Assembly (NCBI GenBank): GCA_003136355.1
Contig: PLED01000070.1
Coordinates: 1 to 34,436 of the forward strand
From: Vulcanimicrobiota bacterium
Lineage (GTDB): Bacteria > Vulcanimicrobiota > Vulcanimicrobiia > Vulcanimicrobiales > Vulcanimicrobiaceae
DNA: 34,436 bases
Reading direction: 5' to 3'
In this document: piece by piece, positions 439 through 31,157 of the stretch
Position numbering within the stretch: the first letter of the stretch is position 1
Layout: every line of letters begins with the position of its first letter
Notes under the pieces: generated by a model
What the model was told of the DNA's origin: nothing
The model's database searches: none
Seen by the model: only the letters and a program-made list of their open reading frames with translations
Position numbers and translations under genes: made by a program

Positions 439-575
439 ATGAGACATCCCAATCAGGCAACCTTGGCGCTGCACGCCGGCGGTGACCTCGGGCCCTTCGC
501 CCGGTGGTTCACCTCCAGGCATGTCGCCCGGTGCGAGAATTGCCGCGAAGAGGTCGCCGCCTTCGATGACCGCGT
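439..575 (+). CDS. Zinc-finger anti-sigma factor N-terminus, truncated at a join
   Basis: Starts at the ATG at 439, four bases after the sigma-factor stop, with AAGGAAG upstream as ribosome site. The first 43 or so residues read as a zf-HC2-type anti-sigma domain: H-P-N-Q-x-x-L-A-L-H-A-G-G-D, then H-V-A-R-C-x-x-C-R-E-E-V, giving the His...Cys-x-x-Cys zinc site. This 'LALHAGGDLG...ARC..CR' start is one I associate with Acidobacteria. After about position 575 the frame stays open to 699 but only as the antisense of aroB, so the real protein (its remaining domain and any membrane helix) is missing. I read it as a gene cut by a chimeric join, not a functional short protein. Confidence 0.75.
545..575. 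other. Probable chimeric join between two genomes
   Basis: Left of here the + strand encodes a good anti-sigma factor ending around CREEVAAF. Right of here the - strand encodes a good aroB whose sequence is convincing up to about GGDLFAA. Both genes make sense only through the same short stretch, about 20-25 bases around gaagaggtcgccgcc, and neither continues past it. Two unrelated genes meeting tail-in-middle over a shared short word is the typical mark of an assembly join. A real recombination event at microhomology is the alternative. Confidence 0.7.
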
Positions 576-1122
576 GCTTCACCATCTCCGCCAAGCCTTC
601 GCGCATGTTGCGGTAGGGCAGCGTCGCGAGCGCGTCGATGTGCGCGAAAACGGCAACCGGGTTCGAAAACGTGCCGGCGAGGTTCTTTCCCTCGGGTAGA
701 TCGACGCCGGTTTTCCCGCCGATGGCAGCGTCGACCATCGCGACGAGCGAGGTTGCGACGTGCGCATACGGCACGCCGCGCATATACATCGAAGCCGCAA
801 ATCCGAAGAGGTCGGACGATACGCCGCCGCCGATGCCCAAAACGAGCGTCTTCCGGTCGGCGCCGCTGCGCAGCAGCGCGCGAAGCACATCTTCTACGGT
901 CGAAAGGCGCTTGCGCCGCTCTCCGAGTCTTGCGGGAATGAATGCGAGGCGGTCGCGTACGCCGTTGGTGAGCTCGTGCCCGTACGAGACGACGTTCGCG
1001 TCGCAGAGCACGACGAATCGGCCGCCTTGCCGCGCGAGAAAGTCCGTCAGTGCCGCGCGAACCGACGGCGCGACAACGATCGGATAACCGAGATCGTGAT
1101 TCTCCGAGCCGAGGGCGCTCAC
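547..1122 (-). CDS. aroB: 3-dehydroquinate synthase, C-terminal half missing
   Basis: Second step of the shikimate pathway: NAD- and metal-dependent conversion of DAHP to 3-dehydroquinate in the cytoplasm. The GTG start at 1122 overlaps the aroK stop (GTGA). About 192 of the usual ~350 residues are present: the NAD-binding stretch GIGGGVSSDLFGF, the ATSLVAMVDAAIGGKTGVD segment and the LAEMVKHAVI helix with the first metal ligand Glu. The two metal-binding histidines of the C-terminal domain are absent because the sequence changes to antisense anti-sigma DNA near 547-565. The open frame continues to 349 but that tail (residues APGDMPGGEPP onward) is not AroB-like. The truncation is best explained by the join at 545-575; the native gene is presumably intact. 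Confidence 0.88.
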
Positions 1123-2797: not shown

Positions 2798-2863
2798 CCG
2801 GCTGTTTTAGCGGCTGCGACTCGCCTCACCCGCCAAGCCGGCGACACTACGGAGGCGCAGGCG

Positions 2864-3271
2864 CTAGCGTTGCACGCGTTTTTTTGGCCGTCCGCCCTTT
2901 GCGCCATTTCGTCGAGCAGCTCGCACCTTGGCCCGCGACGTCGAGCTACCGGCGCGGGCGTATGGGTCTTCTCCCAGAACCGCGAGTCGAAGTAAGCCGA
3001 ACGCCGATATGTGAATGTCATACGCGTCTATATCGAACGACCTGTGATCGGCACCTAGCCTAAGCGATTTCATCATCGCTTTTGGAACCGTCCGAAGCGT
3101 GCCGATCCACTTTCGAGGAATTATTACCCGCACTTGGTTCGGCATCGTTATCGTTAGCGTGTCATATTCCACTTCGTAAGAAATGCCAATTGGAGCGCGT
3201 CGAAATTTCTCTGCGCCGACTGTACGAGCCCTGGCTATCCCTTCATCATCGAATCCGATCGCCCTGACCAT
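2864..3271 (-). CDS. DUF2442-domain protein, possible antitoxin partner
   Basis: 135 aa from the ATG at 3271, chosen because a strong GGAGGA ribosome site sits 6-7 bases upstream; an in-frame ATG at 3301 lacks one. The central part reads like DUF2442: a beta-strand stretch (YDTLTITMPNQVRVIIP), then R-K-W-I-G-T-L and an end-of-domain D-I-H-I-S-A-F-G-L-L-R. The C-terminus is a basic, disordered-looking tail (RRNGAKGGRPKK), a feature seen in DUF2442 proteins that may bind DNA. The upstream DUF4160 gene overlaps its start by 26 bases. DUF4160/DUF2442 pairs recur in bacteria and are suspected toxin-antitoxin-like modules; no biochemical function can be read from the sequence. Confidence 0.72.
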   Translation of the reverse strand: MVRAIGFDDEGIARARTVGAEKFRRAPIGISYEVEYDTLTITMPNQVRVIIPRKWIGTLRTVPKAMMKSLRLGADHRSFDIDAYDIHISAFGLLRLAVLGEDPYARAGSSTSRAKVRAARRNGAKGGRPKKRVQR

Positions 3272-3506
3272 GATACTTCCTCCAAAATTGCCAACAGGCA
3301 TCCAGCCGCCGGATCACCACCTCTCGCGCACGGCGGATGTCAGATCTCTTCATCCCTCGTCCGGCGTCCTCTAAAGTCACTTCGTCTCTGCCTAGCCGAA
3401 TTTTTACTGAGCCGTAATTACTGACTACATGAACGTGCGGAGGCGCATGATCATCGACGTGAACCAGGATACGGAATTCTCCCTCGCGAGGCCGCAGCTC
3501 CGGCAT
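3246..3506 (-). CDS. DUF4160-domain protein, possible toxin partner
   Basis: 86 aa from the ATG at 3506 (protein begins MPEL, as DUF4160 proteins usually begin MP). The open frame extends to 3560 and the start has no strong ribosome site, so the N-terminus is uncertain. The core fits DUF4160: a short strand (FRILVHVDD), then H-A-P-P-H-V-H-V, then a strand pair (SVKIRLGRDEV) and a C-terminal helix ending W-x-x-W/F-R-K-Y-H. The H-x-P-P-H-x-H-V cluster is the family's hallmark and could be a metal or catalytic site. Its 3' end overlaps the DUF2442 gene by 26 bases, so the two are certainly co-transcribed. Confidence 0.72.
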   Translation of the reverse strand: MPELRPREGEFRILVHVDDHAPPHVHVVSNYGSVKIRLGRDEVTLEDAGRGMKRSDIRRAREVVIRRLDACWQFWRKYHGQGDRIR

Positions 3507-3562
3507 ACATGATACCCAACGCGATGGGTTTTTGCAACCGCCGCGTCGACGCATCTCCACGA

Positions 3563-4603
3563 TTATTTGGTAGACCTCCCTACGATATGCGGAGTAATCA
3601 GAAAGACGACTTCATCACGCTGATGGGTCCGCTGACGCTCCTGAAAGAGCTTGCCCAGTACCGGAATCGACGAAAGACCCGGGACCCGCGTTACCGATTC
3701 GGAATCGATATCACGGAGGAGCCCGCCCAGTACAATCGTTTCGCCATCTCGGACGCCCGGCATCCGCACCTCGACCGGATCCTCGACGCTGCACAAATTC
3801 TCAGAAAGTGCATCGCGCTCGCTGAGAGCCGCATACAACGTCGTCGTCTTGCCGCTTCCCGTAGGGCCGGCCGCGACGATAAACCCGTACGGCGCTTTGC
3901 ACGCCTTCTGGAGAGCATCGTAATACTCACCCGGAATATTCAGCTGATCAAGACGCGGGGTTTGAACGTGGTCCGCCAGCAGCCGTATCGCGAGCTTTTC
4001 ACCCGCTATTGTCGGAACCGAACTGACGCGCGCATCGAAGGAGCTGCCATTCACTTCGAGGTTGTACCGGCCGTCTTGCGGCTGTCGTTTATCGGCGATG
4101 TCCATTCCGGCTAGGAGTTTGACCCTTGAGACAACCTGCGCAAAAAGCTCCGGCGTTATTGCTCTGCAGAAATGCAGGATGCCATCGACGCGTTGTCTGA
4201 CGCGTCCTCCATCTTCGTATGGTTCGATGTGCACGTCCGATGCGTTCGCAATTGCTGCAGCGCGTAGGATATCGTTTGCGACCGCAACCGCGGGCGGTTC
4301 GATGACTCCGCGATCGGGCAGGGGAATCGGATCATGGTAGATGCGTTTGAGGCGCTGGCGGATCGCGTCGCGCGGCGCCTCCAGCGCGTGGACTTGCATT
4401 CCGGTAACGAAGCGTATTTTTTCGACGGTGTCGAGCGCGCCCGCATCGGGCACAGCGACCGTTAATTCGTTCCCGACGCTCGAAAGCGATAGGACATCAT
4501 GCCCCAAAGCGAGAGCCCGCGGAATTTTCCGGAGCGCATCCGTTTCAACCGGAACGGATGCTACATCGATAGCTCGAGCGCTATCAAAGTCTTTAAGAGC
4601 CAC
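3563..4603 (-). CDS. Hybrid ORF: GspE/PilB-type ATPase front fused to secretin tail
   Basis: From the GTG at 4603 (AGGGG ribosome site upstream; the frame is open to a TTG at 4690). Residues about 1-95 are a T2SS_E N-terminal domain (DALRKIPRALAL, LTVAVPDAGALD, RFVTG). Then comes the ATPase core with ASDVHIEP, the RLL...P segment and Walker A GPTGSGKT at 246-253, up to SVEDPVE at 272-278. A GspE/PilB should then continue with the LRQDPD Walker B and GEIRD motifs. Instead the frame passes at once into RDGETIVLGGLLRD, VPGLSSIPVLGKLF and EVVFLITPHIV, the C-terminal barrel end of a GspD/PilQ secretin. With no Walker B and no secretin channel it cannot work as either parent. A deletion between neighbouring gspE and gspD genes, or an assembly collapse, best explains it. 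No other secretion gene is nearby. Confidence 0.85.
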   Translation of the reverse strand: MALKDFDSARAIDVASVPVETDALRKIPRALALGHDVLSLSSVGNELTVAVPDAGALDTVEKIRFVTGMQVHALEAPRDAIRQRLKRIYHDPIPLPDRGVIEPPAVAVANDILRAAAIANASDVHIEPYEDGGRVRQRVDGILHFCRAITPELFAQVVSRVKLLAGMDIADKRQPQDGRYNLEVNGSSFDARVSSVPTIAGEKLAIRLLADHVQTPRLDQLNIPGEYYDALQKACKAPYGFIVAAGPTGSGKTTTLYAALSERDALSENLCSVEDPVEVRMPGVRDGETIVLGGLLRDIDSESVTRVPGLSSIPVLGKLFQERQRTHQRDEVVFLITPHIVGRSTK

Positions 4604-4770
4604 ACCACGACCCCTTCGAAAGACTATTAGCCTGCGTTCGCTAACGCCAACGCATGATAAAGATGTATCACATGTCGACTCGTTGAGCAATCTCCCGGCA
4701 ACAAAAACGCGTGGTCTTTATTTCCCAGGCCATCTTGACGGATTCTGGGCATGCCTTTTGTGGTATGTAG

Positions 4771-4779
4771 TTATCCACA
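4771..4779 (+). promoter_or_regulatory. Perfect DnaA-box consensus at the lipid-kinase start
   Basis: TTATCCACA matches the strict DnaA-box consensus and abuts the ATG at 4780. It is the only exact copy I noticed in the window, so this is not an origin. The 176-base gap 4604-4779 otherwise holds only a loose TTGACG at about 4736 and TATGTA near the box, spaced too far apart for a confident promoter. Confidence 0.35.
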
Positions 4780-5643
4780 ATGCGTGAAGTCACGATTATC
4801 TGCCGTCTGAAGTCTCGTAATGGCCTGGCGTTCTATCAGCGCCTCCACGACGAGTTGCCGAAGCGCGGGATTCGCATCGTGGCGGCGCAAACCGTTAAGA
4901 AGCGCAAAGATTTCATTCGCGCTATTCGGGCAGCCGTAAAATCCCGCGTGGAAACCATCGTGGTCGTCGGCGGAGACGGCTCGCAGACGGCAGCGGTCGC
5001 CCAAATCGCGCATAGCAAATCCACGCTCGCCGTGGTTCCCGCCGGCACCGGTAACAGCTTCGCCCTGGGCCTCGGAATCAAAGATTTCGAAACGGCTGTT
5101 GAGGTCATCGCTACCGGCCGCGAGCAACGCATCGACGTGGGCGTTGTCAACGGGACCTATTTTGCAAATTTTGCGACGCTGGGGCTTACCGCCGATGCCG
5201 CCGAAACGACTCCGCCCCTAAAGCAACTGTTGGGGCCAGTCGCATACGGGTTGGCTTTTCTGCGCGATCTCCTCAAGAGCAGGCCGTTCCAGATGCACGT
5301 GACGTGGAAAGGCGGCGATCTCAGAATCAAAACGTACCAGGCAATCGTTGGAAACGGCCGTTACTTCGGTTGGCAGGCCCTAACTCCCGATGCCGGCGTC
5401 CGTAGCGGCGAGCTCGTTTTTCTTGCAGTCGAAGACGTATCGAAGGCCGATGCACTCAAAACCAGCGCCGCGCTCCTGCGCGGAGACCAAACGAAACTCG
5501 AAGGAGTCCATTACTTCTCCGCGCGCAAGATCGATATCCGCACCAAACCCAGGCAGCGGCTCGACATCGACGGCCATTCTTTGGGCAAGACACCCGCAAA
5601 GTTTAAAGTCGAGCCCGATGCGTTGCGCGTGCTGGTGCCTTGA
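4780..5643 (+). CDS. Diacylglycerol kinase-family lipid kinase
   Basis: 287 aa with the DAGK catalytic fold: the nucleotide-binding GGDGSQT at residues 64-70 and the VPAGTGNSFA signature near 85-94. These are followed by the C-terminal beta-sandwich half with YQAIVGNGRYFG and DG(E/V)-type segments (DIDGHSLG). Family members (YegS/DgkB/BmrU-like) phosphorylate diacylglycerol, sphingosine-type or undecaprenol-like lipids from ATP at the membrane face; the substrate cannot be read here. The next gene, a PAP2 phosphatase, overlaps it by four bases (TTGA). A kinase/phosphatase pair on membrane lipids is therefore a fair inference. The ATG at 4780 agrees with the family start. Confidence 0.9.
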   Translation: MREVTIICRLKSRNGLAFYQRLHDELPKRGIRIVAAQTVKKRKDFIRAIRAAVKSRVETIVVVGGDGSQTAAVAQIAHSKSTLAVVPAGTGNSFALGLGIKDFETAVEVIATGREQRIDVGVVNGTYFANFATLGLTADAAETTPPLKQLLGPVAYGLAFLRDLLKSRPFQMHVTWKGGDLRIKTYQAIVGNGRYFGWQALTPDAGVRSGELVFLAVEDVSKADALKTSAALLRGDQTKLEGVHYFSARKIDIRTKPRQRLDIDGHSLGKTPAKFKVEPDALRVLVP

Positions 5644-6254
5644 GCCGCACAGCCGAATACTACGTCGCCGCTGCCGTTCTTTTCGTCGCGTTTATCGCGC
5701 TCGGCGAGTTGGTCACGCGCAAACCGGCGTTGCGCGTAGACTCGGCCGCGCTTTTCCACGCGCGCGCAACACCGTTGGCACGCTTCTTCACCTTCTCCGG
5801 CCGTTGGGTCTTCATTACCGCCGGCTTTGTCATGGCGACGTTCATTTTCAGGCACGAGCATCGTGGCGTGATCATTCCGGCTTTGCTCCTCATCTCACAG
5901 ATTCTGACGCAAACGTTGGCCGAGCTCTTCAAGGCGCACTACCGTCGCGTGCGGCCCGAGTATTGGGTCATTGGGCTGGATATCGGAAAATCGTATCCGA
6001 GCGGGCATGCGGTGACGGCTATGGTCTACTTCTGCGGATGGGCGTTCGTGGTCGCGTTCAGCGCGCTCGCGCCCGATCTCAAATACGCGTTGGTCGCACT
6101 GCTCGTTGCCTGGGCCGTCTGTGTGGATTGGTCGCGGCTCGCGCTCGGCGCGCATTACCTCACCGATATCGCCGGCGGCACACTCCTGGGCTCGGCGTGG
6201 ATCTGCGCCGTGCTCGGCGCCGTGCATCAATTCGCGCTGGCGCACGCGCCCTAG
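5640..6254 (+). CDS. PAP2-family membrane phosphatase
   Basis: 204 aa, mostly hydrophobic, with about five to six transmembrane segments. All three motifs of the PAP2 acid-phosphatase family are intact: K98-x6-R105-P106, P120-S-G-H123 and S165-R-x5-H172-x3-D176, with the two catalytic histidines. It likely dephosphorylates a lipid phosphate (phosphatidate, PG-phosphate or undecaprenyl pyrophosphate) on the outer face of the inner membrane. The TTG start overlaps the stop of the lipid kinase, so translation is probably coupled. The end overlaps the convergent gene 6251-6685 by four bases. Confidence 0.92.
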   Translation: MSRTAEYYVAAAVLFVAFIALGELVTRKPALRVDSAALFHARATPLARFFTFSGRWVFITAGFVMATFIFRHEHRGVIIPALLLISQILTQTLAELFKAHYRRVRPEYWVIGLDIGKSYPSGHAVTAMVYFCGWAFVVAFSALAPDLKYALVALLVAWAVCVDWSRLALGAHYLTDIAGGTLLGSAWICAVLGAVHQFALAHAP

Positions 6255-6685
6255 GCGCGCTGTTTACTCTCGGTCGAGCCGCGTTCGATCAAGCTCTTGG
6301 TCAGAAAGACCAGACCCGCCATTTGGATCCACTCAGAGAGAATATTGCCGTAGACTTGGCCCCACTTGGAATTGGTCGGGCTGTGCCAAAAAACGATGGC
6401 CCACACCACCCCGGTAACGGCCAGGAACACGAGCAGCGAATGCTCGTGCAAGAATCCCGCGAGGCCGCCATGGCGGCGTGCGATTTTCCGGCTCTCGTGC
6501 GAACCGCGTTCGAGCAAAAACTTCGTGCCCAGAATGATCACCACCGAACCCGACCAGTCGGCGATCGCGTTGCCGAAGAACTGTCCGATGTGCGTATTCG
6601 GATCGCTGAAGCAATACAGCACAAACCACAGCGCGAAAATGGCGACCGTGACAATGCTCAGCCCATGCGCGCGAAAAATTTGCAT
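6251..6685 (-). CDS. Small membrane protein made of two repeated units (DUF6766-like)
   Basis: 144 aa with about four transmembrane helices. Residues ~1-70 and ~71-144 are two versions of one unit: an opening H-G-L-S or H-S-L-L before a hydrophobic helix, then a loop, G-N-x-(I/L)-(A/S)-(D/E)-W, a second helix, and an identical close, L-x-T-K-x-L-(L/I)-E-R-G-S-x-E-S-(R/K). The close and general layout resemble DUF6766, usually annotated with one unit; that link is from memory. ATG at 6685, one base before the stop of the VOC gene, so it is the last gene of the ftsA-ftsZ-VOC run. Function unknown. Confidence 0.75.
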   Translation of the reverse strand: MQIFRAHGLSIVTVAIFALWFVLYCFSDPNTHIGQFFGNAIADWSGSVVIILGTKFLLERGSHESRKIARRHGGLAGFLHEHSLLVFLAVTGVVWAIVFWHSPTNSKWGQVYGNILSEWIQMAGLVFLTKSLIERGSTESKQRA

Positions 6686-7099
6686 TTACTGCCCCGTGAC
6701 GTACCGGTGGTGCGTTAGGTAGCAAACCTCGAGTTTGTTGCCCTCGGGGTCGTCGCAAAAGGTCGCGTAGTAGCCGCTGTAATCCATTGGCCCGTCAATA
6801 TCGCCCGCGCCCGCCTTCCGCAGCGCTGCGGTAACGCGGTCGACCTGCTCACGCGATGTCGCGTGAAAGGCGATTCGGTTGGCATTCGGCACAAAATCCG
6901 GGTCGACGGTGAGGCCGATGAATTCGTCGTTCGCCTCCCAGTGCTCGCGCCTCCAAGTGGGCTCGTCGTCGGGAAACAGCTCTTTCACGCGCACGAAGCC
7001 GAACTCAGCCAAAAGCGTATCGTAAAAGCGAGTCGCGGCTGCAACATCTCTGACCCGCAAGTCGACGTGACTAAATAAGCGTTGCCCCGCGCCGTTCAC
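6686..7099 (-). CDS. VOC-superfamily (glyoxalase/bleomycin-resistance fold) protein
   Basis: 137 aa. It starts with the typical F-S-H-V-D-L-R-V-R-D strand and a FYDTLLAEFGF helix/strand, and ends with YYATFCDDPEGNKLEVCYLTH, where D-P-x-G-N-x-(L)-E carries the usual metal ligand Glu. N-terminal His, mid-protein His (IAFHA) and C-terminal Glu are consistent with a metal site. Members include glyoxalase I, dioxygenases and fosfomycin/bleomycin resistance proteins, and no substrate can be assigned. The GTG at 7099 lies 9 bases after the ftsZ stop. It may thus be read from the fts transcript. Confidence 0.85.
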   Translation of the reverse strand: MNGAGQRLFSHVDLRVRDVAAATRFYDTLLAEFGFVRVKELFPDDEPTWRREHWEANDEFIGLTVDPDFVPNANRIAFHATSREQVDRVTAALRKAGAGDIDGPMDYSGYYATFCDDPEGNKLEVCYLTHHRYVTGQ

Positions 7100-7108
7100 A
7101 CGGAGCCG

Positions 7109-8182
7109 TTAGCCGCGATAGCGCAGGAAGGCCGGAACCTCGATGTCGTCCATGTTCACCGGCGAAACCGCGTCGAAGCGCGTGTCGGCGAAATTGAACG
7201 ACGCCTGCGAGCGCCCGTAGCCGCGCTGCGAACCAAAGCCCGCCGCCAGCACCGTGACGCGCACTTTGCCCGTCATGGTCGGATCGATGCTCGCGCCGAA
7301 GATGATCTGCGCATCGCCGTCAACGGCCCGGCTGATCATCTCAGCGGCCTCGTTGACTTCGTACATCGCCATGTCGGCGCCGCCGGTGATGTTGAAGATC
7401 ACGCCGCGGGCGCCTTCGATGGTCGTCTCGAGCAGCGGCGAGGCGATCGCCTTTTGCGCCGCATCGGCCGCGCGGTGCTCGCCCGTTCCTTCACCGATGC
7501 CCATCATCGCGGTGCCCGCATCGGTCATCACCGTCTTCACGTCGGCGAAGTCGAGGTTGATGAGCCCCGGCTGCGTGATCAAATCGGAGATTCCGGCAAT
7601 GCCTTGACGCAGCACGTCGTCGGCGTACGCGAAGGCTTCGTTGAGCGGCGTGCGCTTTTCGATCACTTGCAGGATGCGCTCGTTGGGGATGGTGATCATC
7701 GTGTCGACTTTGGGCTCGAGCTCGGCGATGCCGTTCTCGGCGACTTGCATGCGCTTGCGGCCTTCGAACGCGAACGGCTTGGTGACCACCGCGATCGTCA
7801 ACGCGCCTGCGTCGTGCGCGAGTTCGGCGATAACCGGCGTCGCGCCGGTTCCCGTGCCGCCACCCATACCAGAAGTAATAAAGACCAGATCCGCGCCTTC
7901 CAGAATCAGCGCAAGGTCTTCGCGTGAGTCTTCGGCCGCTTCGCGCGCCAGGACCGGGTTCGCGCCGGCGCCCAGGCCCCGCGTCAGACCCGTGCCGATC
8001 TGCACAGTATTTTCGGTCAGTGAATTGCGGAGCGCTTGCACGTCGGAGTTGACGGCATAAAACTCCACGCCGGTCAGTCCGGCTTCGATCATGCGATTGA
8101 CTGCGTTGCATCCGCCGCCGCCGACGCCGACCACTTTAATCGTCGCCGCATGCTCGGGTACGTAGCGCTTCGCTTCAGCCAT
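7109..8182 (-). CDS. ftsZ: Cell-division GTPase FtsZ
   Basis: Tubulin homologue that polymerises into the division ring. 357 aa from the ATG at 8182, chosen because AAGGAG lies about 10 bases upstream; the frame also has an ATG at 8209. The GTP-binding tubulin signature GGGTGTG is at residues 107-113, GGGGCNAVNRM near 21-31, and the T7 synergy loop NLDFADV at 209-215 carries the catalytic Asp pair. The C-terminal peptide DDIEVPAFLR, which docks FtsA and other partners, is present. The linker before it is short, roughly 25-30 residues. It follows ftsA by 17 bases, the classic order. Confidence 0.97.
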   Translation of the reverse strand: MAEAKRYVPEHAATIKVVGVGGGGCNAVNRMIEAGLTGVEFYAVNSDVQALRNSLTENTVQIGTGLTRGLGAGANPVLAREAAEDSREDLALILEGADLVFITSGMGGGTGTGATPVIAELAHDAGALTIAVVTKPFAFEGRKRMQVAENGIAELEPKVDTMITIPNERILQVIEKRTPLNEAFAYADDVLRQGIAGISDLITQPGLINLDFADVKTVMTDAGTAMMGIGEGTGEHRAADAAQKAIASPLLETTIEGARGVIFNITGGADMAMYEVNEAAEMISRAVDGDAQIIFGASIDPTMTGKVRVTVLAAGFGSQRGYGRSQASFNFADTRFDAVSPVNMDDIEVPAFLRYRG

Positions 8183-8199
8183 GGTAGTCGTCTCCTTAT

Positions 8200-9414
8200 T
8201 TAGTTCCATAGATCGCCCAGCCACGAGCGGAATTTGCCGAACATCGACGGGCTGCGTTTGACGTAGCGGTGGTTTTCAGTCCCGCCGTTGGGACCAAAGA
8301 GAAGTAAACCGATAGCGGTGGCATATTCGGGCTGCTTCATCGCATCGGTGAGGCCGCCGATCGCGTCGGGCGTGCCGACACGCACCGGCAAACCGAAGAC
8401 CTCTTCTGCCAGCGGCTCGATGCCTTTGAGATGTGCGCCGCCGCCGGTCAACACGATCTCTCCCAAGACCAAATCGCGCGGCACGTTTTCGATGATCTTG
8501 GTCTTGCACATCCTGAACGTTTCGATGACGCGCGGCACGACAATTTGGCGCAGCTGCGAACTCGCTGACTCCCGCGTGCTGCGGCCGTCGAGCGTCTTAA
8601 CCGGGAAAAATTGCTCCTCTGACTCAGGCGGCCCCGAACCGTAGACGCGTTTGATCTGCTCGGCTTCGCCCGCGGTCGTCTTCAGTCCGAGCGAGATATC
8701 ATTGGTCAGAATGTTCCCGCCGATCGGAATCGTCGCCGTGTAGATCGCGCCGCCGCCGCTATAAACGGCGATGTCCGTCGTGCCGCCGCCGATGTCGAGC
8801 AGCACCACGCCGACCTGTTTTTCTTCAGGCAGCAGCGTCGCGGCTGAACTGGCCAGCGGCTCGAAGACCAGTCCCGATGCCTCGAGCCCCGCGCGATGCA
8901 CGCATTTCAGAACGTTGGTGATGAACGAGGTGCCGCCGGTGATGATGTGCGTGTCGACCTCGAGGCGCCCGCCGGCCATGCCGATCGGATCCTCGACGCC
9001 GTCCTGCCCGTCTACGGTAAAAAAGCGCGGTAGCGCGTGAACGATTTGGCGATCCGCAGGGACACTGATGATTTTGCTGGCTTCAACCACGCGGTGGACA
9101 TCATTGCTGCTGACCTCGCGGTCTTCGTTCTGCACGGCCACGACTGCGCGGTTATTGGTGCTGCGGATGTGCTCGCCCGTGATGGCTACGTAGACGTCGC
9201 CGATGTGGACTCCGGCCATGCGTTCGGCCTTTTCTGTCGCCGCTTCGATGGACTTGATGGTCTCCTCGAGGTCGGTAACGACCCCCTTACGCATTCCCAG
9301 CGAAGGCGCTTCGCCGAAGCCGATAATCTCCAAGCCTTGGGGTCCGTCGGAGGCGACAACAGCGCACGTCTTAGTCGTGCCTATGTCTAGCCCCGCAACG
9401 GTGCCGTGCTTCAT
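8200..9414 (-). CDS. ftsA: Cell-division protein FtsA
   Basis: Actin-like ATPase that tethers FtsZ to the membrane. 404 aa from the ATG at 9414, with GAGGGG seven bases upstream. Actin-fold motifs: phosphate 1 (AGLDIGTTKT at residues 7-16), the 1C/SHS2 region with VYVAITGEHI, phosphate 2 (VVLLDIGGGTTDIAVY) and the adenosine loop (EIVLTGGGAHL). The C-terminus ends in an amphipathic stretch MFGKFRSWLGDLW, the expected membrane-targeting sequence. It begins the ftsA-ftsZ run. ftsQ is on the same strand but separated by two small genes on the other strand. Confidence 0.96.
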   Translation of the reverse strand: MKHGTVAGLDIGTTKTCAVVASDGPQGLEIIGFGEAPSLGMRKGVVTDLEETIKSIEAATEKAERMAGVHIGDVYVAITGEHIRSTNNRAVVAVQNEDREVSSNDVHRVVEASKIISVPADRQIVHALPRFFTVDGQDGVEDPIGMAGGRLEVDTHIITGGTSFITNVLKCVHRAGLEASGLVFEPLASSAATLLPEEKQVGVVLLDIGGGTTDIAVYSGGGAIYTATIPIGGNILTNDISLGLKTTAGEAEQIKRVYGSGPPESEEQFFPVKTLDGRSTRESASSQLRQIVVPRVIETFRMCKTKIIENVPRDLVLGEIVLTGGGAHLKGIEPLAEEVFGLPVRVGTPDAIGGLTDAMKQPEYATAIGLLLFGPNGGTENHRYVKRSPSMFGKFRSWLGDLWN

Positions 9415-9508
9415 CCGCGATCCCCTCAAGCCCAATATATTGTGGCCCGCCTGCCTAAACCCTACAACGTATAGAGGTTTGTGGCAAGGGCCCTGAACGA
9501 CTGAAACC

Positions 9509-9553
9509 CACAGGTTTGAGCGGCGGCGCCGCCCTCCTTGCGAGCAACCTGTG
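9509..9553. repeat. Inverted repeat in the ftsA upstream region
   Basis: Arms CACAGGTT (9509-9516) and AACCTGTG (9546-9553) flank 29 bases that contain a GC palindrome GGCGGCGCCGCC. It lies in the 214-base divergent gap 9415-9628 between ftsA (-) and the small secreted-protein gene (+), so it could be an operator or mRNA structure. I see no convincing -35/-10 pair there. Confidence 0.4.
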
Positions 9554-9628
9554 CAGCGGTGTGGAGAAAAGGCGGAAAAGTTGGTAGAATCCCATGCTAA
9601 GACTACTCGGCGCTTTGATGGAGTTTTC

Positions 9629-9934
9629 GTGCGAACAATTAGCCTGCTAGCTTTCATCGCGGCTCTGGCCGCGCCCGCGGTTGCGGCTCAAACAACAACG
9701 ACCACGCGAACCGCCGTTACGAATCCTGCGCAACTACCTGACGGCACCTACACCGGGGTCGTGCAAAAAGTGATCGACACCAAAGACGTCGTCGTTAAAC
9801 TTTCCAACGGTGCCCAAGCGACGCTAAAAACCGCCAAGGACAACGTTGACTTCACGAAATGCCAGACCAATCAATCGATCCGGTTCTCGGTGATCAACGG
9901 TCTGGTTGCGGTGTACGCACCCGAATCTCCGTAA
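9629..9934 (+). CDS. Small secreted protein of unknown function
   Basis: 101 aa from the GTG at 9629, preceded by GGAG; this start gives a clean Sec signal peptide (MRTISLLAFIAALAAPAVAA, cut likely after AAA/AVAA at ~20). The mature part begins with a Thr-rich stretch and then has a compact all-beta pattern: DGTYTGVVQKVIDTKDVVVKL, SNGAQATLK, then SIRFSVINGLVAVYAP. That alternation suggests a small OB- or SH3-like barrel. One Cys. It lies on the strand opposite to and between ftsA and ftsQ. No family recognised. Confidence 0.65.
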   Translation: MRTISLLAFIAALAAPAVAAQTTTTTRTAVTNPAQLPDGTYTGVVQKVIDTKDVVVKLSNGAQATLKTAKDNVDFTKCQTNQSIRFSVINGLVAVYAPESP

Positions 9935-27468: not shown

Positions 27469-29103
27469 GTGCTAGATGCCGACACCGCTGACAATGTTGC
27501 GCGGGCCCTCTGGACGCAAAGTTTCGATCCGTCGACTTTAGAGCCGCGGACTGCCGAGTTCGTCAACAGCGCGAAAAACTCGAAAGTGGCGTTCGGCCAG
27601 CGTATGCGCGGCTATCTCCAAGATCTCAAAAAGCGCTCGATCAGCTTCGTGCCGAGCTGTGCCCGTCGCTACGAATATTTTATCGAACATTGTGCGGAAC
27701 TGTCGGCCCAGCAAGCCTATGTGATGTCGAATCTGTTGGGCAGCGACACCGTCGAAGGTTACGAACTGCTGGGCGAGACGGCCGGCTTGCAGTTTCCGCG
27801 CGACCATCGCGTCTTCTTGAAGTATCAGGTCGGCTGGCATTTTTTCGTTGGCACCGCGAAGGGCGTGAACGGAAAGACCTACAGCGCCGAGCTCATGTTT
27901 TGGCAGTGGGCGCTTCTTCCGCCACCGGTCGCAGCGCGCTTTGGTTTGAGCGACATCGAAAACCAGGTCATGGAAATGCACCTGGCCGTTACCGAGGAAG
28001 GCGGGCGTCACTACCGCGCCGCTCCGTTGTTGGTCGCTGGAACGACGGGCTTAATTGACGTTCGCGACGATCCGTTTAAATGGACGATCGGAAAGAACAG
28101 CATCGAAGCGCAGCAGAGTGGCGATCTCTTTCCGCTCCACCTGCAAGCCAAAGGATGGGACCGCGGCACGGGCGACCACGCGGAGCTCGCAATCGATCTG
28201 CGGTTTTCAAAGGGCAAGGGCATCTTGCTCCAAGGCGGCAGCGGTTGTTCACCGTGCTGCGCCGGGATCGGAACGCTGTATTACTCCATCCCCGGATTAG
28301 TTCTCGAGCCCGGCAGTTGGCTTGAAACCGACGGGAACCGCGTGGAATTGCAATCCGGAATATTCTGGATGGATCATCAATGGGGCACCGGTTTCTTGCC
28401 TTCGGGCGCACCAATGAGCGCGCCGCTACGCGCCGCTTCCGTGTTGGCCACACCGAGCCCGGGCGGCTGGGACTGGTTTCCATTGCAGTTCGACGATAAT
28501 TACGAGATCACGGTGGCGGCCATGCACGCGCAAGCGAATTCCAAGTTCTATTTTCAAACGGGCCCCGAACCGCCCGGCGTGATGACAGTTCCGGTGTCAG
28601 GAAAGCTGATGGACCCACAGGCCGTAACCAGTGACCTCAAAGGGACGCTCAGCGTCACAGAGTGGGTGAAAGCCACGCATTCCAACGATGCCGCTTATCC
28701 GCCGACGGGAACGTGGTATCCCAATCGCTGGGAGTTTACGTTTGACGATCCCGCTCCCAGCCATCTGCGAAACGTGATCATGACTCCGCTTGTCGCCGGC
28801 GGCCAAATGGGCTACTTCGCAAATGGCGCCGAATACTTGGAAGGCGGGACCAAACTCAGCAGCCCGGACGGACGTCAGATCGGCACGAGCTTTGCCGAAG
28901 CCACGAACTACGCGAACACGCAGGCGTTCCAAGCAAAGTTGGCCGGACTGCCCGCGGACGAGACGACGATGAGACTCTTGAAACGGCCGGTGCCGTCGGC
29001 GCTCGATAAGCTCGCGGCTCTGCTGTATACGATTTGGCCGCCAAATGCTAAGGAACTGAAACGCGTCCTCGATTGCTGCTCCAAGAACGGACTCTCCCAA
29101 TGA
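27469..29103 (+). CDS. AttH/CrtC-like lipocalin-fold protein
   Basis: 544 aa from the GTG at 27469 (GGCGGAA upstream). The second half carries what I recognise as the AttH/carotenoid 1,2-hydratase (CrtC) lipocalin pair: GTLYYSIPGL, SGIFWMDHQWGTGFL, then WDWFPLQFDDNYEITV and later TGTWYPNRWEFTF. In the family the W-x-D-H-x-W-G motif is nearly invariant; members act as hydratases or lipid-processing proteins. Two vicinal Cys clusters (GCSPCC near residue 265 and DCC near 537) are odd. The N-terminal ~100 residues are not recognised. No signal peptide is visible. Its TGA overlaps the next S9 gene (ATGA). The exact activity is not assignable. Confidence 0.7.
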   Translation: MLDADTADNVARALWTQSFDPSTLEPRTAEFVNSAKNSKVAFGQRMRGYLQDLKKRSISFVPSCARRYEYFIEHCAELSAQQAYVMSNLLGSDTVEGYELLGETAGLQFPRDHRVFLKYQVGWHFFVGTAKGVNGKTYSAELMFWQWALLPPPVAARFGLSDIENQVMEMHLAVTEEGGRHYRAAPLLVAGTTGLIDVRDDPFKWTIGKNSIEAQQSGDLFPLHLQAKGWDRGTGDHAELAIDLRFSKGKGILLQGGSGCSPCCAGIGTLYYSIPGLVLEPGSWLETDGNRVELQSGIFWMDHQWGTGFLPSGAPMSAPLRAASVLATPSPGGWDWFPLQFDDNYEITVAAMHAQANSKFYFQTGPEPPGVMTVPVSGKLMDPQAVTSDLKGTLSVTEWVKATHSNDAAYPPTGTWYPNRWEFTFDDPAPSHLRNVIMTPLVAGGQMGYFANGAEYLEGGTKLSSPDGRQIGTSFAEATNYANTQAFQAKLAGLPADETTMRLLKRPVPSALDKLAALLYTIWPPNAKELKRVLDCCSKNGLSQ

Positions 29104-31157
29104 TACGCACGCTCATACTTCTTCCGCTTGCATTTCTTGCAGCTTCCGCGACCACGCCGGCGGCCCAGCGCGTGCTGACATTCGAGGACTTGCGTCGCGT
29201 CGTCACGGTGAGCCAACCGCGTATCTCTCCGAACGGAGAGCAGATCGTGTACGTGCGTTCCAAAGTCGATTGGAAGGCCGACCGCAACCGCTCGGAGCTC
29301 GTGCTCGTCAACGTCGACGGCACCGGCGCGCGGACGCTCACCCACAGCCGAATCGGCGTGAGCAATCCGCAGTGGTCGCCCGATGGCACGCACTTGGCTT
29401 TCCTCGCTTCTCTCGAAGCCGGCAAGCCCGCGCAACTCTTTGCGATGCCGATGAACGGCGGCGACTCACTCCAGCTAACGACGAATAAGGCTGGCGTACA
29501 AGATTACGCCTGGCGTCCCGACGGCAACGCGCTGGCGTATATCTCCGACGATGATCCGGCAAATCAGAAGGCGCTCGACAAGCATCTCGACGCTGTCGTC
29601 ATCACCGATAACGACTATCTCACGCGCGAAGCGACACAATCGGCACACCTGTGGCTTGTCGATGCATCTGGCGGCGCCGCGAATCGTCTCACGTCGGGAA
29701 CGTGGAGCGTCGTAAAGGGGACAGCGCCCGTCTGGGCACCTGACAGTTCAAAAATCTATTACCAACGCCAGCCGGATCCGATTTTTGCGCACTTCGTTTC
29801 CCAAACGACGTACGCGTACGACATACGGTCGAAGGCGAGCGCCGACCTTGGGTTCGGAGTCGACTCAGATCCGAAGGTTGGTAGCAGCAATTCAGGTAGC
29901 CTAAACGGAGTGACTGGCGGACCCTTGATCGCGGTAGCCAAGCCTCGGCACGGCACACTCTTTCTTCAAAACGACCTCTCGATACGCTCCTTAAGCGACG
30001 GCCACGAAGTTTTTAACAGCAGCGCCGACGTGGACCGCAACGTCCACTCCTACTTCTGGTTAGGCCCAGACCTCATCGTAAGCACCGCAAACGGCGTTCG
30101 GAGCGTCGCGTTTCGGGTTGGGACCCTGAATATGTCCAACGGAACGGTAAATGGCCCGCGCCGTCCTGGATGGGCAGCTGCGCTCGGCATCTTTTCTGAT
30201 TCCCCGGTCGATTTTTCCGGCGATGCAACCGCCAGCACAAACGGAGCGATCGCATTTGTGGGTTTGCGCCGCGATCGGCCGGCCGAGATTTACTACCTTC
30301 CGCCCGGCTCATCAACGGCGACGCAAATCACCAATGAAAATGCCTGGATGAGCGACTTTGCGATCGCGCGATCCGAAGCATTCGAGTGGCAAACCGACAT
30401 GGGCTCGAAGGCCGTCGGCGTTCTAACGTATCCCGTCCACTATGTGGCGGGACAAAAATATCCGCTAGTGCTCGATATCCACGGCGGTCCTGTCTCCACG
30501 TCAACCTGGGATATGGTGGGCCTCGAAGGCCTGTCGCTCGTGCAAATTCTCGCGGCGCACGATTACTTCGTTTTCCGTCCGAATTATCGCGGCAGCGACA
30601 ATATGGGTGACGCGTTCTTGCAAGGGATCGTAGGCGACATGGCCAGCGGGCCGGGACGCGACAACTTGGCGGCAGTCGCTGCGCTACGGGCGACCGGCAT
30701 GATCGACGAATCGCGGATCGGTGTTTCGGGCTGGTCCGGTGGCGGGCTGCAAACGTCGTGGCTGATCGGCCATGCGAACTTCTGGCGAGCCGCCGTCATG
30801 GGCGCAGCCGTCACGGACCAATACCAAAAGGCCGTGCTTTCCGACATCAACGAACCGTTCAATCAAGCCTTTTTCAATGTGCTGCCGTTCACGCCGGCGG
30901 GCCGGGCTGCATACGCAGCCGAGTCGCCGATTACGTTCGTCGACAACGTAAAAACGCCGACGCTGATTCTCAGTGACACGCGCGATCAGCGCGTTCCCGT
31001 CTCGCAGGCATACACATTTTATCATGCGTTGCGCGATCGCGGCGCGACCGTAAAATTCACGGCCGTCCCGCGTTACGGCCATTTCCCCACCGATCCCGTA
31101 GGACGAGAAATAACACTGCGCGCCTGGGCCGGCTGGTTCGATCGGTGGATGAAATGA
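29100..31157 (+). CDS. Secreted S9-family prolyl-oligopeptidase-like peptidase
   Basis: 685 aa from the ATG at 29100, which overlaps the previous stop and opens with a signal peptide (residues 1 to ~22). A TolB-like propeller (repeated W-x-P-D-G-x-x-L motifs) is followed by the alpha/beta-hydrolase domain: D-I-H-G-G-P, P-N-Y-R-G-S, the nucleophile in GWSGGG (S546), D629 in SDTRDQRVP and H661 in RYGHFP. These are the S9 catalytic triad. Such enzymes cut short peptides, often after Pro or release dipeptides. The next gene is a paralogue that overlaps its stop (ATGA); exact substrate unknown. Confidence 0.95.
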   Translation: MIRTLILLPLAFLAASATTPAAQRVLTFEDLRRVVTVSQPRISPNGEQIVYVRSKVDWKADRNRSELVLVNVDGTGARTLTHSRIGVSNPQWSPDGTHLAFLASLEAGKPAQLFAMPMNGGDSLQLTTNKAGVQDYAWRPDGNALAYISDDDPANQKALDKHLDAVVITDNDYLTREATQSAHLWLVDASGGAANRLTSGTWSVVKGTAPVWAPDSSKIYYQRQPDPIFAHFVSQTTYAYDIRSKASADLGFGVDSDPKVGSSNSGSLNGVTGGPLIAVAKPRHGTLFLQNDLSIRSLSDGHEVFNSSADVDRNVHSYFWLGPDLIVSTANGVRSVAFRVGTLNMSNGTVNGPRRPGWAAALGIFSDSPVDFSGDATASTNGAIAFVGLRRDRPAEIYYLPPGSSTATQITNENAWMSDFAIARSEAFEWQTDMGSKAVGVLTYPVHYVAGQKYPLVLDIHGGPVSTSTWDMVGLEGLSLVQILAAHDYFVFRPNYRGSDNMGDAFLQGIVGDMASGPGRDNLAAVAALRATGMIDESRIGVSGWSGGGLQTSWLIGHANFWRAAVMGAAVTDQYQKAVLSDINEPFNQAFFNVLPFTPAGRAAYAAESPITFVDNVKTPTLILSDTRDQRVPVSQAYTFYHALRDRGATVKFTAVPRYGHFPTDPVGREITLRAWAGWFDRWMK

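Follow-up and report, generated by a model that had tools for sequence, protein, structure and literature searches.

The left end of a Vulcanimicrobiota contig: an almost certain assembly chimera between host aroB and acidobacterial DNA

Interspecies chimeric contigs are known from de Bruijn-graph metagenome assemblers (PMC7299287), and have been discussed in terms of 'chimeric nodes' (PMC8171044). For Stordalen Mire, the metagenomes from each habitat were assembled jointly by the CLC assembler (PMC6786970). The window considered here, the whole stretch of DNA analysed, comprises bases 1-34436 of contig C84 (34,688 bases) in assembly G000, which totals 2.52 Mb in 111 contigs and is 96.6% complete. 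The left edge of the window is the end of the contig, while the right edge falls 252 bases short of the opposite contig end. At that right end lie 5S and 23S rRNA genes (30-146 and 242-689 on the minus strand of L049, which spans C84 34000-34688); rRNA genes are an ordinary site for a contig to break.

The closest described counterpart of the host locus is the aroC-aroK-aroB-priA cluster of the same genus, which we compared in five genomes that are at least 94% complete (G001, G002, G003, G005 and G006) and in a sixth that is 56% complete. In each of the five, a 359-residue aroB is followed by priA, although in G003 it lies inside a longer mechanically called ORF. The window shares the order and sequence of this cluster from base 546 rightwards; however, where the relatives have a complete aroB and priA, it carries foreign DNA. 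The earlier note had placed aroC, aroK and aroB with the main contig, and the gene order of the relatives from 546 rightwards bears this out.

On the minus strand, aroC (chorismate synthase, 1634-2797; Pfam Chorismate_synt, E 3.6e-109) and aroK (shikimate kinase, 1119-1637; Pfam SKI, E 1e-36), both also identified by the gene order of the relatives, lie tightly upstream of aroB, which begins at 1122. Host aroB is present only as its 5' part (546-1122, minus strand), amounting to about 194 of 359 codons. This portion of 3-dehydroquinate synthase keeps the N-terminal domain (DHQ_synthase, E 1.4e-37) and lacks the C-terminal domain, which in the protein of a relative is matched by DHQS_C at residues 176-315. 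The match between the window's aroB and that of the relatives stops at about residue 194-195, and in DNA alignments with all five of the more complete genomes it begins exactly at window base 546 and runs rightwards, a result repeated with larger stretches of four of them; the aroB part is missing in the sixth, 56% complete genome. The apparent aroB ORF extends from 1122 to 349 on the minus strand, but its last stretch (349-545) is a false 3' end, the antisense of the foreign piece. A search of two acidobacterial genomes with the host aroB fragment gave no match at E<=0.001. Colinearity with G002, G006 and G003, interrupted by some gaps, extends along most of the remaining contig, and bases 546-34436 are therefore soundly assigned to the host.

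Along this colinear part, the window also differs from its relatives around 3752-3756, where G002, G003 and G005 have a further 9.3-9.6 kb that separates genes for a pilB-type ATPase and a secretin and contains pilT-, pilC-, prepilin-peptidase-, pilM/N/O-like and other genes. A search of the assembly did not recover this DNA at any other place. The join creates a fusion ORF (3563-4690, minus strand, 375 aa) in which the N-terminal part of a pilB/GspE-type ATPase (T2SSE) runs in frame with the end of a secretin domain, and which should not be read as a functional gene. Since the arms here have only about 2-5 bases in common, unlike those of the left-end misjoin, the sequence favours a real deletion, and the join is probably this rather than a k-mer misjoin; alternatively, it may be an assembly skip. 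The alignment with G006 omits window 2848-4755 entirely, and the genus may therefore have lost the pil locus on more than one occasion. A segment of about 1.6 kb at 27472-29116 is absent from the corresponding place in G002, where its flanks are just 10 bases apart.

The counterpart of the foreign piece is an ECF sigma/anti-sigma operon of Bryobacterales acidobacteria, represented by PMTR01000063.1 (L045) and PLZX01000318.1 (L032). The plus-strand ORF at 3-434 encodes an ECF sigma factor (Pfam Sigma70_r4_2, E 1.7e-14; Sigma70_r2, E 1.3e-12) that has lost its 5' end at the contig end. When the sigma protein was compared with named genomes, 16 of 17 loci belonged to Acidobacteriota, mostly Bryobacterales/Solibacter MAGs, with a best amino-acid identity of 90%; the fragment is equally 90% identical to the proteins of L045 and L032. 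Matches to the piece occur in 214 of 237 genomes of that acidobacterial family, at 88-90% only in the first two. Two of the nearest acidobacterial MAGs are 'palsa' isolates, and the sample may come from Stordalen Mire. The left piece was absent from all six same-genus host genomes searched, one of which has a 77-base, 76% match of the piece to a sigma paralogue. Searches with the two sides taken separately, as had been proposed, thus led to Bryobacterales on the left and to the host genus on the right, and the acidobacterial resemblance previously noted for the anti-sigma start agrees with the sigma loci. By these comparisons, bases 1 to about 550 can be attributed to a Bryobacterales acidobacterium and not to the host.

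The sigma gene is followed on the plus strand by an anti-sigma-like ORF, whose start codon at 440 lies 6 bases 3' of the sigma stop codon and whose protein begins MRHPNQATLALHAGGDLGPFARWFTSRHVARCENCREEVAAFD. In L045 the intact gene (3437-3997) encodes 187 residues, whereas the copy in the window is cut after about 43 codons. The earlier note likened this protein to the zf-HC2 family. Its position after an ECF sigma gene fits such a role, as does an H-x3-C-x2-C motif (HVARCENC) in the intact homologue, which also has a hydrophobic stretch; but the family label itself did not hold, as the 187-residue protein matched neither zf-HC2 nor any other Pfam family at E 0.01. The window and the acidobacterial operon are identical over 336-569 in the case of PMTR01000063.1, and they differ in that the operon has the anti-sigma-like gene complete, followed by a 384-residue gene.

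Comparison with L045 base by base divides the left piece in two. Bases 336-569, which hold the end of the sigma gene and the first anti-sigma-like codons, are identical at 234 of 234 positions, and beyond 569 identity collapses (12/31 from 570, then 27/100). Bases 1-335, which hold the rest of the sigma gene, are only about 83% identical to L045 and about as far from L032; mismatches to L045 number 57 in 3-335 and none in 336-569. The differences between L045 and L032 are spread about evenly, also along 336-569, which implies that this stretch is not unusually conserved. Bases 1-335 thus probably come from another, third acidobacterial lineage, which would make the left end a three-source mosaic overall. 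Alternatively, the switch at 335/336 may reflect a natural recombinant within the acidobacterium.

The host and foreign matches overlap at 546-569 in a word of 24 bases, CGAAGAGGTCGCCGCCTTCGATGA, in line with the 20-25 shared bases at about 545-575 that had been estimated from the window alone. The word is exact in L045, and three same-genus sequences (L003, L004 and L005) match it at 22 of 24 positions, against 9-12 of 45 immediately to its left, which shows that the two-sided fit is not due to chance. The length of 24 bases is inferred from these relatives (22/24) and not seen in the host, whose own copy is hidden. The last 23 bases of the word occur once in the assembly, even with one mismatch allowed. 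Each gene breaks off at the point where the other starts, and both can be followed sensibly as far as 546-569 but no further. The G+C content is 0.62-0.65 on either side with no shift at the junction, so the join is invisible by composition. Given the base composition of the window, chance alone would produce about 0.4 shared 24-mers for two genomes of 2.52 Mb and 7.4 Mb, and about 50 when the host genome is set against 1 Gb of other DNA; a word of this kind is therefore unremarkable in a complex metagenome.

The same two-genome join would result if a chimeric molecule, formed by library ligation or by a PCR template switch, and not an assembler error, had made it. Template switching can also act through short homology, but ligation requires no shared word, and here a 24-base stretch fits both sides. 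A foreign piece of up to 545 bases with an apparent further switch of source is also better explained by a walk through an assembly graph, and we consider a chimeric molecule very unlikely.

The true continuation of the host locus is found on another contig of the assembly. The 3' half of aroB was matched nowhere else in the assembly, and priA picks up again at base 2 of C40. On a single contig of the relative G005 (L092), C40 aligns to 2878-9656 and C84, from its base 546, to 2142 and lower positions, with 735 bases between them, which identifies C40 as the true neighbour; C40 is also colinear with G002. The host locus is thus an ordinary one, and the foreign bases occupy an assembly gap.

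This arrangement bears directly on the proposal of a real horizontal transfer, in which acidobacterial DNA recombined into the host chromosome within aroB and truncated it. The DNA as assembled would indeed have such an appearance. However, the rest of aroB has not been moved but is absent, and an intact priA opens another contig, which is what a gap would produce. Two genes are cut by the foreign piece, which is terminal on its contig; the event would have destroyed the sole aroB found in the assembly, and it would have to be very recent, as 234 bases are 100% identical to those of an acidobacterial MAG. We therefore give horizontal transfer next to no credence, and it is improbable in the extreme that this lineage truly gained acidobacterial regulatory DNA in recent times in place of the 3' half of its aroB. 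A close relative with the window's left-end arrangement was sought on both sides of the junction and was not found.

Taken together, our data leave little doubt that the left end is an interspecies metagenome assembly chimera, produced by an ordinary k-mer misjoin and not by biology. The earlier note had described it as a chimera of two genomes and proposed a k-mer-sized misjoin; the first is confirmed by the Bryobacterales affinity of the left side and the synteny of the right side with same-genus genomes, and the second is supported by the two taxa, the 24-base word and the continuation at C40. The closeness of the junction to a contig end also favours an assembly chimera. We infer that the join arose from this shared word while a k-mer assembler was working at small k. 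In this mechanism the assembler would have been building the host contig towards the left, through aroB, when it met the word at 546-569. A co-occurring Bryobacterales acidobacterium has the word in its anti-sigma-like gene as well, and the assembler would have passed into that genome. It would then have walked up to 545 foreign bases, probably with one more switch, between acidobacterial variants near 335/336, before it stopped. The real continuation, the 3' half of aroB and then priA, lies in about 0.73 kb that was not assembled, beyond which comes C40.

The significance of this finding is for quality control only. The earlier advice that bases 1 to about 550 should not be used to characterize the organism was right in that they are foreign, but the limit should be extended, and we suggest that bases 1-569 be masked. 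If they are left unmasked, an ECF sigma/anti-sigma pair will be wrongly assigned to the organism, and databases will take up a shortened AroB whose tail is spurious (ORF 349-1122). C84 and C40 can be linked over the gap of about 0.73 kb, which restores the order aroC-aroK-aroB-priA.

A misjoin of this kind is already known (PMC7299287; PMC8171044). As in the published de Bruijn chimeras, two genomes are joined via a short shared word into a multi-species contig. The published accounts stress sequence that is common to related species, whereas in the present case the organisms are unrelated and the word is short enough to be shared by chance.
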